From Vulcanimicrobiota bacterium (GTDB lineage: Bacteria; Vulcanimicrobiota; Vulcanimicrobiia; Vulcanimicrobiales; Vulcanimicrobiaceae), in the NCBI GenBank assembly GCA_019232905.1, contig JAFANA010000057.1, positions 1-64,000 of the forward strand: DNA of 64,000 bases, written 5' to 3'. A program made the position numbers and the translations under genes. Under the pieces are notes generated by a model, which was not told where the DNA came from, ran no database searches, and saw nothing but the letters and a program-made list of their open reading frames with translations. Positions 39,816 through 49,888 of the stretch are shown in pieces. The first letter of the stretch is position 1, and every line of letters begins with the position of its first letter.

Positions 39816-42515
39816 ATGAGAGCTCCGGGATTGCCCGCGAACGAGCGCGAGCGCCTGCAGGCACTTGCGGAGTATGAAATTCTCGATACCTCCGAAGAGC
39901 CGCTCTACGATGCATTCACACAACTCGCGCGTGAAGCGACCGGGACGAGCATATCCGTCATAACGCTCGTCGATAGCGATCGCGCGTGGGCGAAGTCGCA
40001 TCTCGGAATCAGCGGCCGCGAGGGCTCACGCGAAGAGTCGTTCTGCGGACATGTCGTTGAAAGCGGCACGGCCATGGTGGTCGGCGACGCGCGCGACGAC
40101 GGCCGCTTCTCCGACAATCCCAACGTGACGGGCGAGCCGTTCATCCGCTTCTACGCGGGCGTTCCGCTGACGAATCCCGAGGGTTGCACGATCGGCACGC
40201 TGTGCGTGATCGATACGATCCCGAAAACGCTGAGCGCGTCGCAACTGCACGTTCTCGAACGTCTCGCGAACACCGTCATGAGTGTGCTCGAAGCCCGTCG
40301 CCATTACATGTCTCTCTTTGACGCCGCGCACATCGACGTGTTCACCATCGAACCGCGTGAGGGAACCGTTGCATTCGCATCGCGCGGAGCGTGCCGGCGC
40401 CTCGGATACTCGCGCAATGAACTCGAAGGCATGCCCATGTACGACATCGTTCCCGGGGCCGATGCCGCGGAGGTTCGCGATATCCTCAAGCGGTTGCGGC
40501 GCGGCGAGGAGTTTGTTCGAGAAACGGAGCTGACGCGAAGCGACGGCACGACCTATCCGGTCGAATTGCACTTGGACGTAACGCGCGAACACGGCGAGGA
40601 GCGCGTGCTCGCGATTGCAAACGACCTCACGCAGCGGCGTTTACAGCAACACGAAATCGAGCTATTACTGGGCGCGATCAACGTTGCGGGCGACGTCATT
40701 CTCTTTTACGACGTGACCGACGCCGGCGAACTGCGCCTGACCTACATGAACGAAGCGTTCGCGGAACAGAGCGGTTATACGCGCGAAGAGGCCATCGGCC
40801 GCACACTCGATGAATTCCGGCAATCGATGCCGGACGACGAAGGCATGCGCGTCCTCCGCGCGTCGATTGCGGCGGGGACGGCGACGCAGTCGGAGGTCGT
40901 CAGTTACCGCAAAGACGGCACGACGTATTGGAATCAGGTCACGATGCATCCGGTGCGCAACGCGGAACGCGACGTGACCCACTGGATTTCGATTCAGCGC
41001 GACATCACCGAAGAAGTTGCGCGCACGTCCGCACTCGCCGAAGAGCACGACCGGCTGTTGGCGCTTACGCGCGCGGCGCGACGTCTGTTTACGGCGCTCG
41101 ACGCTCGGACAATCGTTACAACGGTTCGCGACGTTATCGAACAGTTGATCGGCGCAGACGGACGCGTACTTGCCGTGCGTGCCGACGGCTACGTTACGTA
41201 CGTCGAGGAGTTGGGCGCCGTCGACTGGTCGTCGGCCGAGCGCGATACGCTCGCGCAACGCGCCGTCGCGGCGCGGACGCGCATCGTCGACGAGCAAAAT
41301 ACTCGAGCCGTCGCGTCCGCAGGACAGTTCGCCGATGCGAGGTACGGCCTGGAGCTTCGCGTGCGCGGCGCGCGATCGCTGCGCAACACCGATCTCTTCG
41401 TCTTTGATTTAATTGCGGAATACTTTGCCGTTGCTGCGCGTAACGTTTCGCTCTATCAGGAACTGGACGAGCGCCGCAGCGCAGTGCTCGAGCTCAATCA
41501 AACGAAGAGCGACCTCATCGCGATGCTCGCGCACGATTTTCGCGGGCCGCTTACCTCGATTGTCGGCTTCTCGGAACTGACGGGTGAAGTCGGTGACGTC
41601 AACGAGGAGCAGGTCGAGTTTCTCGATACGATCAAGCGGTCCGCGCTGCAACTCTCGGAACTCGCGACCGACACACTCACACTTTCGCGGCTCGAACGCA
41701 ACGAAGTCACGCTGCATCTTGGCGAGGTCGATTTGGAGGTGTTGATTGCTTCCATCGTCGCGCAAGTTTGCGACCGCCGCGCGATCGCCGTCGACGTGCA
41801 AGGCGACGCGCGCGTAACCGCCGACGACGAACGTTTGCGTCAAGTCTTCGCGAACCTCATCGATAACGCAATCAAATATTCACCGGATGGCTCGGAGCCT
41901 GACGTGCGCATCGAAGGCCGGGAGCGTGACGTGGTCGTCACGGTGCGCGACCACGGTATCGGTATTCCGTCCGGGGAAATCTCGCGGATCTTCGACCGTT
42001 TTTCGCGCGCGTCGAACGCCCGCCGCATGCGCATCTCGGGGACCGGTTTCGGACTCTTCATGACCAAGCAGCTCGTGCAGCTTCACGGCGGAACGATCGC
42101 GGTTACGAGCGAGGAAGCCAAAGGTTCGCGCTTCGTCGTGACGCTACCGCGGCGGGTCGACCGGCGCGCCGCACCGCGAACGGTCGTCGTGGTCGATCCG
42201 CAGCGCGAGCATCTTTTTCTCGGCTACGGGCTCCAGGAAGCGGGATACCGGATCCTCGCGGCGTCGCAAGTCGACGAAGTGCTCGCCATCGCCGACGCCC
42301 AGACCGTCGATGCGCTCATCCTTGCTGCACCGGACCTCTTGAACGGAACCGACGCCGTGCAATTTCGCGCGTTTAGCAGTGAATACGGCATTCCGATCGT
42401 CGCCATCGGCGGCGAAAAACATGCGGCGCGTCTCGCACCGTCGCTCACGTTTGCGCGTCCCGTCTTAATCGGTGACGTCGTTGCGGGGCTCGAACGGCAG
42501 CTCGCTAAGGAATAA
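39816..42515 (+). CDS. Soluble hybrid-like sensor kinase, GAF-PAS-PAS-kinase-pseudoreceiver
   Basis: An 899-residue cytoplasmic kinase: GAF (about 5-165, starting PGLPANERERLQALAEYEIL), PAS (about 170-290), PAS (about 295-425), a weak sensor segment (about 430-555), HisKA (His about 572 in MLAHDFRGPLTSIVGFSEL) and HATPase (N box FANLIDNAIKYS, G1 DHGIGIP, G2 GTGFGLFM). A C-terminal receiver-like domain (about 785-899, TVVVVDPQREHLFLGYGLQE) lacks the phospho-acceptor Asp, since the strand ends DALILAAPDLL. ATG 39816 was chosen because it starts the family sequence 1 nt after the hydrolase stop; an earlier in-frame start lies inside that gene. No cognate regulator is adjacent. Confidence 0.88.
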   Translation: MRAPGLPANERERLQALAEYEILDTSEEPLYDAFTQLAREATGTSISVITLVDSDRAWAKSHLGISGREGSREESFCGHVVESGTAMVVGDARDDGRFSDNPNVTGEPFIRFYAGVPLTNPEGCTIGTLCVIDTIPKTLSASQLHVLERLANTVMSVLEARRHYMSLFDAAHIDVFTIEPREGTVAFASRGACRRLGYSRNELEGMPMYDIVPGADAAEVRDILKRLRRGEEFVRETELTRSDGTTYPVELHLDVTREHGEERVLAIANDLTQRRLQQHEIELLLGAINVAGDVILFYDVTDAGELRLTYMNEAFAEQSGYTREEAIGRTLDEFRQSMPDDEGMRVLRASIAAGTATQSEVVSYRKDGTTYWNQVTMHPVRNAERDVTHWISIQRDITEEVARTSALAEEHDRLLALTRAARRLFTALDARTIVTTVRDVIEQLIGADGRVLAVRADGYVTYVEELGAVDWSSAERDTLAQRAVAARTRIVDEQNTRAVASAGQFADARYGLELRVRGARSLRNTDLFVFDLIAEYFAVAARNVSLYQELDERRSAVLELNQTKSDLIAMLAHDFRGPLTSIVGFSELTGEVGDVNEEQVEFLDTIKRSALQLSELATDTLTLSRLERNEVTLHLGEVDLEVLIASIVAQVCDRRAIAVDVQGDARVTADDERLRQVFANLIDNAIKYSPDGSEPDVRIEGRERDVVVTVRDHGIGIPSGEISRIFDRFSRASNARRMRISGTGFGLFMTKQLVQLHGGTIAVTSEEAKGSRFVVTLPRRVDRRAAPRTVVVVDPQREHLFLGYGLQEAGYRILAASQVDEVLAIADAQTVDALILAAPDLLNGTDAVQFRAFSSEYGIPIVAIGGEKHAARLAPSLTFARPVLIGDVVAGLERQLAKE

Positions 42516-43356
42516 TGCGCTCCGGCGCGCTGTATGCGTTCGCGCGCGTGCCGCGGACGAATCCGGCGAGCGTGATGTTGAACGTGCGCGCAAGATCGAC
42601 GGCTAAGCTGCTCGGTGCAGAGACGGCGAGAACGATCGGAATGCGGGCGACCGCCGCTTTTTGAAGGATCTCGAAACTCGCGCGCCCGCTGACTACCATG
42701 ACGGCTCCGCGCAGCGGAAACGTATTCTCGAGCAGCGCCGATCCGGTCAATTTATCGACCGCGTTGTGCCGCCCGATATCTTCGCGCAGCGCGACGAACG
42801 TGCCGTCGGTACGGAAGAGCGCTGCCGCGTGCAGTCCGCCGGTAGCTGCAAAGACGCGTTGCGCCTCGCGCATGCGTTCCGGCAGCTCATAGAGCGTCGT
42901 ACGCGAGATCTGCGCGTCGTCGTCAAGCGGCTCGATGCCCGCATCACGCAAGGAGTCGAGATTTGCGCGTCCGCACACACCACAAGAGCTGTTCATCGTG
43001 AAGTGGCGCTCGAAACGCGACGTATCGGGAAGCGACGGCGCGGCGAGTTCGATGTTGACGATGTTGTAGCGCTGTTCGGCATCGACCGCCGGGTCGATGC
43101 AGTAACTGACGCCTGCGAGGTCTCTGCGCGAACGAATGATGCTTTCGCTCAGCGCAAAGCCTGCCGCCAACTCGAAATCATTTCCCGGCGTTCGCATCGT
43201 CACGGCAAGCGTCTGCGTCGCGCCGCCGGCGATCAAGCGCAGTTCGAGCGGTTCTTCGGTGACGACGTGGTCGTAATCGCGTTTTGCCGAGTCGCCCTCG
43301 AGGCGATCGATTGCGGTTTCAACCGTGCGCCCCGGACGCGCGGTCAGATCGCTCAT
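42505..43356 (-). CDS. fdhD: FdhD, formate dehydrogenase sulfurtransferase
   Basis: A 283-residue FdhD protein. FdhD moves sulfur from a cysteine desulfurase to the molybdenum centre of formate dehydrogenase, and the enzyme is inactive without it. The CxxC motif is seen in SSCGVCGRANLDSL, and the family's C-terminal motifs EDIGRHNAVDKL and VSGRASFEILQK are intact. Its start overlaps the nrfD stop (ATGA), so it is the last gene of the formate dehydrogenase operon. The 3' end overlaps the convergent sensor-kinase gene by 11 bp. Confidence 0.95.
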   Translation of the reverse strand: MSDLTARPGRTVETAIDRLEGDSAKRDYDHVVTEEPLELRLIAGGATQTLAVTMRTPGNDFELAAGFALSESIIRSRRDLAGVSYCIDPAVDAEQRYNIVNIELAAPSLPDTSRFERHFTMNSSCGVCGRANLDSLRDAGIEPLDDDAQISRTTLYELPERMREAQRVFAATGGLHAAALFRTDGTFVALREDIGRHNAVDKLTGSALLENTFPLRGAVMVVSGRASFEILQKAAVARIPIVLAVSAPSSLAVDLARTFNITLAGFVRGTRANAYSAPERIIP

Positions 43357-44342
43357 TTCGGCTGACGGAACGCCGCTTGCGGATCGCGTGCCGAGGCTTT
43401 CCCCGCTGCGATGAGCGATTCGCGCAACACGTATCCGCCGGCAAGTGTGAGAATAGACGCGGCGGTCACGCGCAATGCATCGACCGGTTTGGGCAGGTTG
43501 AACATGCTGCCGAGTACGTTCAAGGCGATCGGTCCGAGCGTTCCCGCGGCCATCGTGTACGTGCGCAGTTTCTCTCCGCGCTTGCCTTTAAAGAACGGCT
43601 TCGTATAGTCCGGATGTCGCCGCTCGAAATCGGTGAGAATAAACAGCTCCGCGGCGCCGGCGACCATCTCGAGCCGTTCGAGGCGCTGCAGCGGTTCGGT
43701 GTTCCCCTCGAGCGTACAGAGGAGACTCGAAAGCGCACACGCCGAGGCAAGACCCGAACAGACCGACATCGCGGGAATGTGTCGTTTTCCCGAACCCCAA
43801 AACGGGTTGGCTGTGGAACTGAGAAGCACGCCGGTATATCCGGCGGTGAACGCACCGAGCAGCGCTTGCACCGGCGTCATCAAACCCGGCGCGAAAAAGC
43901 GCATCCATCGCGGCAGCGTGCCTCCAACGGCGAGTTCGCGTATGACGTTTGCGCCCGCCGCCCCGGAGTAGAACACGAGTCCCCACGTACCGAGCGACAT
44001 CGGTGATTTAAATTTCATGATGCGCAGCATGTTGAGGAACCGCTCGGGACGGCCAAGGTGAGTGACCAGAACGGCCGGATTCGCCGCTGCAAGTACAAAC
44101 GACGTCACCCGCACCGTACGTTTGAGTTTGCGCTCGGACTCGAGTTCCGGTCGCGCGAGCATTTGAATCAGACCGAGTCCGCCCATGATTCCGCCGAGAA
44201 ACAGGTAGGTAACGACGTTCCAGTCCCAATCCGGCCACTTGAGCATCGGGTGGTCGTAATAGGTTGGAATCGTTGCGCGTTGCTCGCCGTTGCGTGAAGC
44301 GGCGCCGATAAACGCGTCGTCGGGACTTGGGATGCTACGCAT
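43353..44342 (-). CDS. NrfD/PsrC-type membrane anchor of formate dehydrogenase
   Basis: A 329-residue NrfD-family membrane protein with about eight transmembrane segments. It probably transfers electrons from the ferredoxin subunit to the quinone pool. Recognisable are PMLKWPDWDWNVVTYLFLGG at the N-terminus, HLGRPERFLNMLRI and KSPMSLGTWGL. NrfD proteins lack haem, unlike the FdnI anchor of E. coli. It overlaps the ferredoxin-subunit gene by 8 bp on one side and fdhD by 4 bp on the other. Confidence 0.88.
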   Translation of the reverse strand: MRSIPSPDDAFIGAASRNGEQRATIPTYYDHPMLKWPDWDWNVVTYLFLGGIMGGLGLIQMLARPELESERKLKRTVRVTSFVLAAANPAVLVTHLGRPERFLNMLRIMKFKSPMSLGTWGLVFYSGAAGANVIRELAVGGTLPRWMRFFAPGLMTPVQALLGAFTAGYTGVLLSSTANPFWGSGKRHIPAMSVCSGLASACALSSLLCTLEGNTEPLQRLERLEMVAGAAELFILTDFERRHPDYTKPFFKGKRGEKLRTYTMAAGTLGPIALNVLGSMFNLPKPVDALRVTAASILTLAGGYVLRESLIAAGKASARDPQAAFRQPK

Positions 44343-45265: not shown

Positions 45266-48200
45266 TCAGACCTCCGATCCGCCGTGTTCGTCGCCTTGCA
45301 TGTGCTGATAGCCGTGGCCGTGGTGCGCTTTGGCCCAGTCGCCGATCGGTTGTCCGAGCGGATCGCGTTCTTGCGCGGGAACCGGTGCGTCGATGCGGTC
45401 GCGATGACGCGGCGGACGGCGTCCCGCCCGGATGTTGCACGTGAGCGTCTTCGATTCGTGAATCGACACGTTCGGATCGAGCGCAATCGGAATTAGGTTG
45501 CCGACGCTGTCTCCGCGTGCAAGCCCGGTCATCTCGCCAAAGTTATACGGAACGCCGATTTGATGCACGCGTTTGCGCTGTCCTTTTGACGTGACGCGCA
45601 GCGGTTGCATGCGGCCGCTCACGAGCGCGCGTGCTTCCATGTCGCCCGTTGCGGTCGAGATCGTCACCCAGCCGCCGTTTTTGATGCCCTTCTCAACGGC
45701 GAGTTCCGGATCGATCTCGGCAAACGCTGCCGGCTGCAATTCTGCGAGCCACGGCACGTATTTCGTCATGATGCCCGAGTACTCGGTGATCCGATACGTG
45801 GTGAGCACGTACGGATAATCGTCCGATACTTCACCGTTATACGGATTGTCGTCGCGTCTGTACTCGCCGTAGGCCGGATTACTCTGTTGCCCGTAGAGTT
45901 CGTTCCGCACGACCGACTGCACCGGTTCGTAGTGCGCCGGAAGCGGACCGTCTTTCAGTCCGCTTGCGACGAAGAGCTGTCCGCGTCCGTCCATCATCAT
46001 GATGAACGGATCGGCGCCCGAGTGCGCATCCATTCCTTTGCCGTCCGGATCGGCCGGCGTATTCGGCGCTTTCGTTGCGATGAAATCAGGAACGTCGATG
46101 CCGGTCCATTTGCCTTGACTCTCGTCCCACCAGACGTATTTCTTGCGTTCGCTCCACGGCTTTCCGTCGGGATCGGCGGATGCGCGATTGTAGAGCGTCC
46201 GACGGTTCGCCGGCCACGCAAAACCCCAGTTCAGCGCCGTGTACGGTCCGCTTCCGTCGCGATTACGGGCGCGATTGTTCTGCTTATCGGGGCAGACGCC
46301 GCTGTAAATCCATCCGCCGCAGGCGGTCGATCCGTCGTCTTTAAGCTCCGTGAAACTCGCGACTTGCTCGCCGTCGGCCACGCGATAGCCGTTGATTTCT
46401 TGCAGCACTTTGAGAACCGACGGTTCTCCTTTTGCGCGCTCACTCGGATCGTCGTGATCGTAGTCCCACGTCATGTGCTGGATCGGACGATCTTTCGGAT
46501 CGGTCGAATCCGCATACAACTCTTTCAGACGCTTTGCAAACCACGTGAAATACCACGCATCGCTCTTGGAGTCGCCGAGCGGCTTGATGGCTCGATCGTG
46601 CCATTGCAGCATACGGCTCGTCTGCGTCATCGTGCCTTCTTTTTCGAGCACGGTCGCGGCGGGCAGAAAAAAGACTTCCGTACCGATCTTGCTCGGATCG
46701 GCACCCTCACGACGCCAGAACGAGACGGTTTCGTTGTCGTAGCTGTCGATATTGACGAACCATTCCAGCTGCTCCATCGCCGCTCGCGTGAGCCCGGCAT
46801 TCTGATTCGATGCGCCCGGATTTTGTCCGATCGCGAAGTAGCCTTTGACGGTCCCGTCCTTCATCGCAAAGACAAGCGGAAGCATCGAGTGATCGCCGAT
46901 CAACTGCGGCAGATAATCGAAGCAGTAATCGTTTTCCGCTTTGGCGTGTTCACCGTAGAACGCTTTGAGCAGCGAGACCATATATTTCGGTGTGTTTGCC
47001 CACCAGCCGGTCGGCTTCGTATTCGTTTTCAGCCAAGCGGCGAGTGTTTGTTCGTCGCGCAATGCGGACGGCGTCGGCAGATACCCCGGCAGCAGATCGT
47101 AGAGTGTCGCGATATCGGTTGCACCTTGAATATCGGCGTGGCCGCGTAACGCCATGATGCCGCCGCCCGGACGTCCGATATTTCCGAGGAGCAGTTGCAG
47201 CACGGCGGCCGTGCGAATCATTTGCACACCGTCGGTGTGCTGCGTCCATCCGAGCGCATAGGCGAACGCCGTCGTTTTCTCGCGGCCGCTGTTCGAGGCG
47301 AGCAAATCGGCGATTTTCGTGAACGTCGCCGGCGGTATTCCGCACACGCGTTCTACCATTTCGGCCGTATAGCGCGAATAATGCCGCCGAAGAAGGTTGA
47401 GCACACAGCGCGGGTGCTGGAACGACGGGTCGCGTTTGACGTGTCCCCGTTCATCCTTCTCGTACGCCCACGTGCTCGTATCGTAGACGCGGCCTTCTTT
47501 GTCGTAGCCCGAGAAGACGCCGTCGAGATCTTCGGTATCCTGGAATTTCTCGCTGACGATGTTCGAGGCGTTGGTATACGCGTAGACGTATTCTTTGAAA
47601 TACCGTTCGTTCGTCAGCACATAGTTGATGATGCCGCCGAGGAACGCGATATCGGTGCCGCTGCGAATCGGTGCGTAGATATCCGCCATCGCCGACGTGC
47701 GCGTGAAGCGTGGATCGACGTGAATGATCGTCGCGCCGCGTTCCTTCGCTTCCATGACGAAACGGAATCCGACCGGATGCGCTTCAGCGAAATTCGATCC
47801 CTCGATGAGGATGCAGTCCGCGTTCGCGATATCGGGTAGCCAAACGGTGGCGCCGCCGCGCCCGAACGAGGTGCCCAAACTGGGCACCGTCGAGGAGTGT
47901 CATATTCGCGCCTGGTTTTCGATCGATACGACGCCGAGCGAATGCATCAACTTGCCCAGCATGTAGTTCTCTTCGATGCCGAACGTTGCGCCGCCGAGCG
48001 ATGCGATGCCGAGCGTGTGATTGACGCGGCGCTTCTCGCCGGTATCCGGATTCGTCCATTCGCGTGCGAACGTCTTTTCGCGTGTCTCTTTTACGAGTTG
48101 CGCGATCCGTTCGAGCGCCCACTCCAACGGACGCTCTTCGTAACGGTCCGAGTACGGCGCGCGATACTTTACCGTCGTCCAGCGCTGATCGTTCATCGTG

Positions 48201-48484
48201 AACCCGAAGATCGCAGAGCCCTTCGGACACAAATGTCCGCGGTTGATCGGGCTTTCGGGATTGCCTTCGACGTCGAGCAGCGTTCCGTCATCGCTCACAT
48301 ACGCAAGCAAACTGCAGCCGACCGCGCAGTAACAGCAGAGACTCGTGACGGCCTTTGCGTTTGCGATTCGTCCTTTGAGTTCTCTCGTTCGCTGCGATAG
48401 AACGTTCGGCAAACTTCCGACGCGTTCGTGCAGATCGAGCTCTTGAGACGGCGCGAATTGCGTAAGATCGATCGTGGTTTTCAC
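45266..48484 (-). CDS. Formate dehydrogenase alpha subunit, selenoprotein (in-frame TGA = Sec)
   Basis: A 1072-residue molybdopterin formate dehydrogenase catalytic subunit read through one TGA. Codons 1-194 (48484-47903) hold the [4Fe-4S] site CCYCAVGC...CPKG and end VVSIENQARI. The TGA at 47902-47900 is codon 195. The frame continues HSSTVPSLGTSFGRGGATVW, and IEGSNFAEAHPVGF follows. In E. coli FdnG the matching place is NQARV-Sec-HGPTVASL, so the TGA stands at the Sec that binds molybdenum. A SECIS-like hairpin lies 11 nt downstream. No twin-arginine signal is present, so unlike FdnG it appears cytoplasmic. GTG 48484 has GAGG upstream. Automated calling would split this into two false genes (47900-48484 and 45266-47887). 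Confidence 0.92.
47870..47888 (-). promoter_or_regulatory. Bacterial SECIS-like hairpin
   Basis: On the minus strand, 11 nt after the TGA: GGTGCCC, loop AGTTT, GGGCACC, a perfect 7-bp stem with G and U in the small loop. The spacing equals that of the E. coli fdhF SECIS (also 11 nt), whose apical loop is contacted by SelB. It sits within the coding sequence (codons HSSTVPSLGT). Confidence 0.85.
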
Positions 48485-48550: not shown

Positions 48551-49888
48551 TTACGCGGTCGCGGGTTTTGGTTGTCCTGTTGGTTTCTTCACGAAGAACG
48601 GGATAATCGCCGCGATGATCAGCATCACCGCAATCCAGTCGAGCGCAGTCGAGTACGAACCAGTGCGATCCTTCACGAAGCCGGCGACAGACGGACCGAC
48701 GACACCACCAACGCCCCATGCGGTCAGAATGTACCCGTAGATCTGACCCAAGTAGCGCGTCCCGAAGTAGTCTGCCGTGAAAGACGGCATTACGCCGAAC
48801 CCGCCGCCGTAGCAGAGCAGAACGATTGCAAAGCAGGTGAGCACGCCGCCAAGCCCGTTCAAATGCCCCACAATGAAGAAGATGACCACTTGAATGAGGT
48901 ACATGACCGTGTAGGTCATGCCACGGCCGATGCGGTCTGAAACCGAGCCCCAGAAGAAGCGTCCAAGACCGTTGAAGACGGCGATGAAGCCATACCAGAG
49001 CGCGGCGGTTGCGGCACCGGCACCGCTGAACTCACTGATCATGGGGACGGCATTCGAGATGATGAAAATTCCGGCCGTGACGTTCAGGAAGAGCAAAACC
49101 CACAAGCCGTAGAGCTGCGGCATGGCGAGCGCCTCGCCCGGCGTGTAGCTCGGGCCTGTTGCAGCAGCGGCGGTCGCACCGGTGACGGTGTAACCCTGCG
49201 GCGGATTGCGCAGCAGCGTGGCACATAGTCCCCCTAAGATGATGAAGACGATGCCCGAGTACACGAAGAGCATCATCGCACCGTGAACGGCGTCAGGGGA
49301 CAATGTATACGCGGTTGGATCGAACGTCGTCCCAGCCTTAATCGCATCCGCGCGCGCAGTAACGTATTTGAGTGCGGGTTTGGCAGCAGCGGCGTACGGG
49401 GCAAGCCGCGTAACGATTTGATTGTAGAAGAACGCACCGAGTCCGAAACCCATCACGACCATGCCGCTGCCAAGACCGCGGCGGTCGGGAAACCACTTGG
49501 TGACCATCGCTACCGGCGTAACGTACGCCATGCCGTTGCCGAAGCCACCGATGATTCCGTAGGTCAGATCGAGCCACCATTTTCCGAGCGATTGCGTGCC
49601 TAATCCGGCGAGCAATACGCCGACGCCCCACAAAACGGCACCGACGATCGTAACCGTCCGTGGACCGACACGATCTTGCCAGCGTCCGCCGAAAACGGCG
49701 CCGAGCCCAAGGAAAAAGATAGCGAGTTCAAATGGAATCGTTGCGTCTTGTGTTGACCAATTGAAACCGGCAATCAGCGTGTTCGTGAAGATGCTCCAGG
49801 AATACACTGTGCCCAGGCACATCATCACAATGATGCCGGCCAGCGCAATCCCCCAACGATTGCCTGAAGACGCGGGAGTGGAAGTCAT
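48551..49888 (-). CDS. Oxalate/formate antiporter (OFA) family MFS transporter
   Basis: A 445-residue, 12-helix major facilitator of the OFA type: GIIVMMCLGTVYSWSIFTN at the N-terminus, the loop GGRWQDRVGPRTVTIVGA, the mid-section GIIGGFGNGMAYVTPVAMVT and TKWFPDRRGLGSGMVVMGFG. It lies 66 bp upstream of the formate dehydrogenase alpha gene in the same direction, so formate is the likely cargo. No oxalyl-CoA decarboxylase or formyl-CoA transferase gene is in the window to support oxalate. A good ribosome site (AAGGGAGAACACT) precedes ATG 49888. Confidence 0.88.
   Translation of the reverse strand: MTSTPASSGNRWGIALAGIIVMMCLGTVYSWSIFTNTLIAGFNWSTQDATIPFELAIFFLGLGAVFGGRWQDRVGPRTVTIVGAVLWGVGVLLAGLGTQSLGKWWLDLTYGIIGGFGNGMAYVTPVAMVTKWFPDRRGLGSGMVVMGFGLGAFFYNQIVTRLAPYAAAAKPALKYVTARADAIKAGTTFDPTAYTLSPDAVHGAMMLFVYSGIVFIILGGLCATLLRNPPQGYTVTGATAAAATGPSYTPGEALAMPQLYGLWVLLFLNVTAGIFIISNAVPMISEFSGAGAATAALWYGFIAVFNGLGRFFWGSVSDRIGRGMTYTVMYLIQVVIFFIVGHLNGLGGVLTCFAIVLLCYGGGFGVMPSFTADYFGTRYLGQIYGYILTAWGVGGVVGPSVAGFVKDRTGSYSTALDWIAVMLIIAAIIPFFVKKPTGQPKPATA

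Follow-up and report, generated by a model that had tools for sequence, protein, structure and literature searches.

Gene content of the locus

The window analyzed here, a stretch of 64,000 nucleotides from a Candidatus Eremiobacterota (Vulcanimicrobiota) bacterium, carries a cluster in the order MFS-fdhA-fdhB-NrfD-fdhD (Table 1). Reading of the fdhA frame (48484-45266, minus strand) revealed a single interruption, TGA 47902-47900 at codon 195, within the context SIENQARI-TGA-HSSTVPSLGTSFG. The open reading frames 48484-47900 and 47887-45266, which a preliminary description had treated as one frame joined at this TGA, do form a single frame. The GTG start of fdhA agrees with the ATG of the homolog in a genome of the same genus (G088), which also has the MFS transporter gene immediately upstream of fdhA. 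For fdhB, a listed TTG start at 45486 lies too far upstream.

Table 1. Features of the fdhA cluster (positions in the window) and selenocysteine genes of the same assembly (contig:positions).
Feature	Coordinates	Strand	Remarks
MFS transporter, lactate / oxalate-formate antiporter kind	48551..49888	minus	NF049980 over cut-off; TIGR00890 below
fdhA, formate dehydrogenase alpha subunit	45266..48484	minus	1072 aa with UGA readthrough; GTG start 48484, terminal TGA 45268-45266
In-frame TGA, codon 195, putative selenocysteine	47900..47902	minus	TGA codons of homologs and alignment with solved formate dehydrogenases
SECIS hairpin GGTGCCC-AGTTT-GGGCACC	47870..47888	minus	stem 47888-47882 with 47876-47870; loop 47881-47877
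fdhB, iron-sulfur electron-transfer subunit, 281 aa	44335..45180	minus	start matches same-genus homolog
NrfD-type membrane subunit	43353..44342	minus	PF03916, 74 bits
fdhD, formate dehydrogenase accessory sulfurtransferase	42505..43356	minus	NF001943 over cut-off
selB	C71:45008-46846	same as selA, adjacent	EF-Tu domains and C-terminal SelB winged helix
selA	C71:46870-48177	same as selB, adjacent	expected domains present
tRNA-Sec, UCA anticodon	C71:25615-25704		71 bits; next-best tRNA matches below 45
selD	C18:5390-6313		expected domains present

The readthrough product matches TIGR01553 (FDH-N alpha) over residues 32-1019 with 1022.9 bits (curated cut-off 814.2) and the actinobacterial formate dehydrogenase model NF041513 (formate_DH_Act) with 1413 bits (cut-off 1400), and all three Pfam domains of the family are present (PF04879, PF00384 and PF01568, which are Fe4S4-binding, molybdopterin and dinucleotide-binding). 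Its residues 39 to about 1020 align at 780-817 bits with the solved structures of Desulfovibrio FdhAB (8cm4, 6sdr) and E. coli FdnG (1kqf), which have the Fe4S4 and molybdopterin domains in common with it. As the preliminary description had expected from the flanking residues, the solved selenocysteine-containing enzymes have selenocysteine at the position of residue 195, with flanks EHQARI-U-HSPTVP. In a comparison with the Protein Data Bank, residue 195 stands opposite the modified residue of D. vulgaris FdhA (8cm4); the predicted U195-H196, a metal-ligand position followed by His, falls on the Sec site of that enzyme, and the in-frame UGA aligns with the redox-active Cys/Sec of homologs.

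The label of an FdnG-type enzyme holds for the selenocysteine site and needs a minor correction elsewhere. Unlike the solved enzymes, the protein here has an NrfD-type partner in place of the cytochrome b FdnI and no twin-arginine signal, and thus lacks both marks of the E. coli FdnGHI-type periplasmic complex. A search for that signal in the FdhA N-terminus (MKTTIDLTQFAPSQELDLHERV...) found no RR, and the upstream gene is just 66 nt away. The absence of the signal suggests an enzyme facing the cytoplasm, and the gene order points to a formate dehydrogenase that is associated with the membrane and accompanied by a transporter and its sulfurtransferase. FdhA proteins of Eremiobacterota also differ from the solved enzymes by a lineage-specific C-terminal tail of about 50 residues.

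Conservation of the UGA codon and its hairpin

The hairpin had been described as a perfect 7-bp stem with loop AGTTT starting 11 nt past the TGA, and this is what the sequence contains; the loop begins 18 nt past the TGA. The proposed fold was supported by the energy of the 29-nt hairpin segment (-16.2 kcal/mol, z = -4.5, better than 200 of 200 shuffles). The element also agrees with the published constraints on bacterial SECIS elements, namely a 5-nt loop, a 7-bp stem, G in the first two loop positions, a loop 18 nt from the UGA and an energy below -7.5 kcal/mol (PMC13188914). By itself the hairpin is weak proof, because comparable stems follow about 8% of the TGA triplets in this GC-rich window (122 of 1592, 7.7%, under loose criteria of at least 7 bp, GU allowed, G in the first two loop positions and a loop 16-37 nt away). 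The exact geometry of seven Watson-Crick pairs, a 5-nt loop and 11-nt spacing follows 2 of 1593. Since loose hairpins are so common after TGA, the case is decided by conservation and covariation.

At the gathering threshold, Rfam gave no match in the whole window. SECIS_3 (RF01989) was found in the right place with 36.8 bits (E = 5.6e-7), below its gathering score of 63; the hairpin works like SECIS_3 but is not filed as a member of it. When the genome was scanned with a covariance model of the formate dehydrogenase SECIS, one strong site was obtained (65.3 bits, the next 17.9); this model misses the selD site described below, and other selenoproteins in the genome are possible.

Relatives of fdhA were found at 58 loci in the collection of named genomes, the nearest two being Candidatus Eremiobacterota (84 and 67% identical). 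Codon 195 is TGA in 47, TGC in seven and TAG in one of the 55 named homologs that cover it, and TGA stands at exactly this codon in 30 of 30 loci fetched from genomes of the phylum. We combined the stop-bearing named homologs with the 30 phylum loci into a set of 78 sequences (77 TGA and one TAG), which includes our own genome and in which two genomes are shared with the named loci. The hairpin is kept in all 78, with 6-7 of 7 pairs. Aligning 67 of these sequences (51 distinct) gave 95.2% paired cells and a covariation score of 0.346 against 0.126 for shuffles; none of 500 shuffles scored as high, and sliding of the strands destroyed the signal. One stem pair occurs as G-C, C-G, U-A, G-U and U-G. 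The loop-closing pair is C-G, G-C or U-A, as a Pro codon and a Leu codon change together while the amino acids stay the same (CCC with CTG or TTG in 63, CCG with CTC in nine and CCT with CTA in six), with no exception among the 78. This covariation of synonymous codons is a clean case of an RNA structure maintained within coding sequence. Our genome has the loop AGUUU, and the rest of the stop-bearing sequences seen all have GGUCU or AGUCU; at the fourth loop position U thus stands here and C in all others, and this C-to-U change is synonymous in Leu (CTG to TTG).

Could the TGA be a nonsense mutation in a broken gene, or a misread Cys codon? A single-base change would yield Cys, and homologs with Cys exist. 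However, the same TGA occurs in the same-genus genome as well as in the phylum loci and named homologs counted above, and its presence in independent assemblies contradicts this reading. Purifying selection against the same-genus homolog is equal on the two sides of the TGA (omega 0.12 before, 0.10 after), and therefore fdhA is not a pseudogene; the hairpin moreover covaries. We consider a damaged gene or sequence highly improbable.

It is similarly very unlikely that two polypeptides are made, one terminating at the TGA and the other initiated at GTG 47887. That GTG is a possible start and would be called by annotation software, but no clear ribosome-binding sequence precedes it, and the resulting enzyme would be without its metal-ligating residue. 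The corresponding codon is GTG in 38 homologs, GTT in 21 and GTC in 19, and the latter two never start genes. The GTG is thus not kept as a start codon, and fdhA is therefore not a split gene.

In the seven TGC homologs the hairpin is largely lost: they retain 4.3 of 7 pairs on average, and the GGUCU loop is absent. The six of these that are long enough form a single clade within Actinomycetota in a quick tree, which is consistent with one replacement of selenocysteine by Cys. The selenocysteine-containing enzymes of Streptomyces, Mycolicibacterium and Nocardioides are about 50% identical to ours and have the UGA and hairpin in the same place; in the same tree, FdhA of Eremiobacterota stands apart from Actinomycetota and groups with one Thermomicrobiota sequence. 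The single TAG is in fdhA of Blastococcus sp. TBT05-19 (L032:6478-6522), where the hairpin is retained. Insertion of selenocysteine at UAG by a tRNA-Sec with CUA anticodon has already been described in Blastococcus and relatives (PMC5330540).

Selenocysteine machinery and predicted decoding

The preliminary description had predicted that the organism encodes SelA, SelB, SelC and SelD outside the window, and selA, selB, tRNA-Sec and selD were all found elsewhere in the same assembly (Table 1). The assembly is fragmented (3.29 Mb in 144 contigs), with a completeness of 83% and a contamination of 4%. The TGA and hairpin, the MFS-fdhA-fdhB order and every selenocysteine gene tested are also present in the same-genus genome G088 (96% complete), and because it carries the same set, contamination is an unlikely source of these genes.

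A genome-wide reassignment of UGA, to Trp or Gly for instance, would also leave the frame open, which is the sole observation in its favor. However, UGA terminates fdhA, the NrfD gene and the OFeT neighbor, and with UGA terminators in the same operon the code is therefore not reassigned; tRNA-Sec and the hairpin are present as well. We regard reassignment as extremely improbable.

Comparative evidence thus points, with a probability of roughly 0.97, to fdhA of this Candidatus Eremiobacterota bacterium as a genuine selenoprotein gene, encoding a catalytic subunit of the FDH-N kind in which UGA codon 195 is read as selenocysteine. Actual insertion at residue 195 is predicted from sequence. SelA would make Sec-tRNA-Sec using selenophosphate supplied by SelD, and SelB would bind the stem-loop that starts 11 nt downstream of the UGA and deliver the charged tRNA. 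No bacterial selenoprotein is distributed more widely than FdhA (PMC13188914), so the mechanism proposed here is the textbook one. Sec195 would ligate the active-site Mo (or W), and formate would be oxidized with electrons passing to FdhB, then to the NrfD-type membrane subunit and presumably to quinone. Formate oxidation toward quinone is the likely catalytic direction, direction and acceptor both being deduced.

The selD gene (within L020:1480-2517) itself has an in-frame TGA at codon 18, the active-site position, in the motif CAG-U-ASKLG, and is predicted to be a selenoprotein gene too; annotation would likely miss its N-terminus. About 32 nt past this TGA comes a hairpin (UGGCGCA-GGUCU-UGCGUCA) whose loop is identical to that of the formate dehydrogenase element. 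Among 20 selD relatives examined, 15 have TGA and five TGC, and that hairpin is absent from most TGC copies.

Selenocysteine across Eremiobacterota

Among 149 genomes of the phylum, selA is over the cut-off in 121, tRNA-Sec matches with at least 60 bits in 100, and a TGA lies within an FDH-N-like segment that covers codon 195 in 73 (at the exact codon in the 30 fetched loci, the remainder being read from the search table). Of these 73 genomes, 71 have selA; the exceptions, both incomplete assemblies, are G086, where tRNA-Sec is present, and G120, with neither gene. Copies of selA with an internal TGA in genomes of family f14 were rejected as candidates, the TGA being the ordinary selA stop preceding the next reading frame.

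Beyond the enzyme described here, the phylum (G017, G015, G016, G128 and others) has one or more additional FDH-N-like branches, with an in-frame TGA and about 44% identity to our protein, as well as shorter FdhF-like proteins that also contain TGA; several genomes may therefore encode more than one selenocysteine-containing formate dehydrogenase each. The search table gives two in-frame TGA codons for one FdhA homolog (G105:C4:462803-465748), the second of which may be a selenocysteine codon, an error or the terminal stop. In genus g35, all eight genomes (G109-G116) are without selA, a strong tRNA-Sec match or a close formate dehydrogenase homolog, and the whole trait looks like it was lost together in this lineage.

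A literature search, with most subscription papers and preprints outside its coverage, found no report of selenocysteine in Eremiobacterota. The phylum-wide extent of its use may thus be unreported, and we offer it as a lead with no claim to priority. We give about even odds to selenocysteine use being an old, widely kept and previously undescribed trait of Eremiobacterota, maintained largely by selenocysteine-containing formate dehydrogenases and SelD. The data show in any case that dependence on selenium is common in this little-studied phylum. Automatic annotation tends to cut fdhA at the UGA, with loss of the active site, and because the gene is split in this way, the formate metabolism of such uncultured bacteria is readily overlooked.
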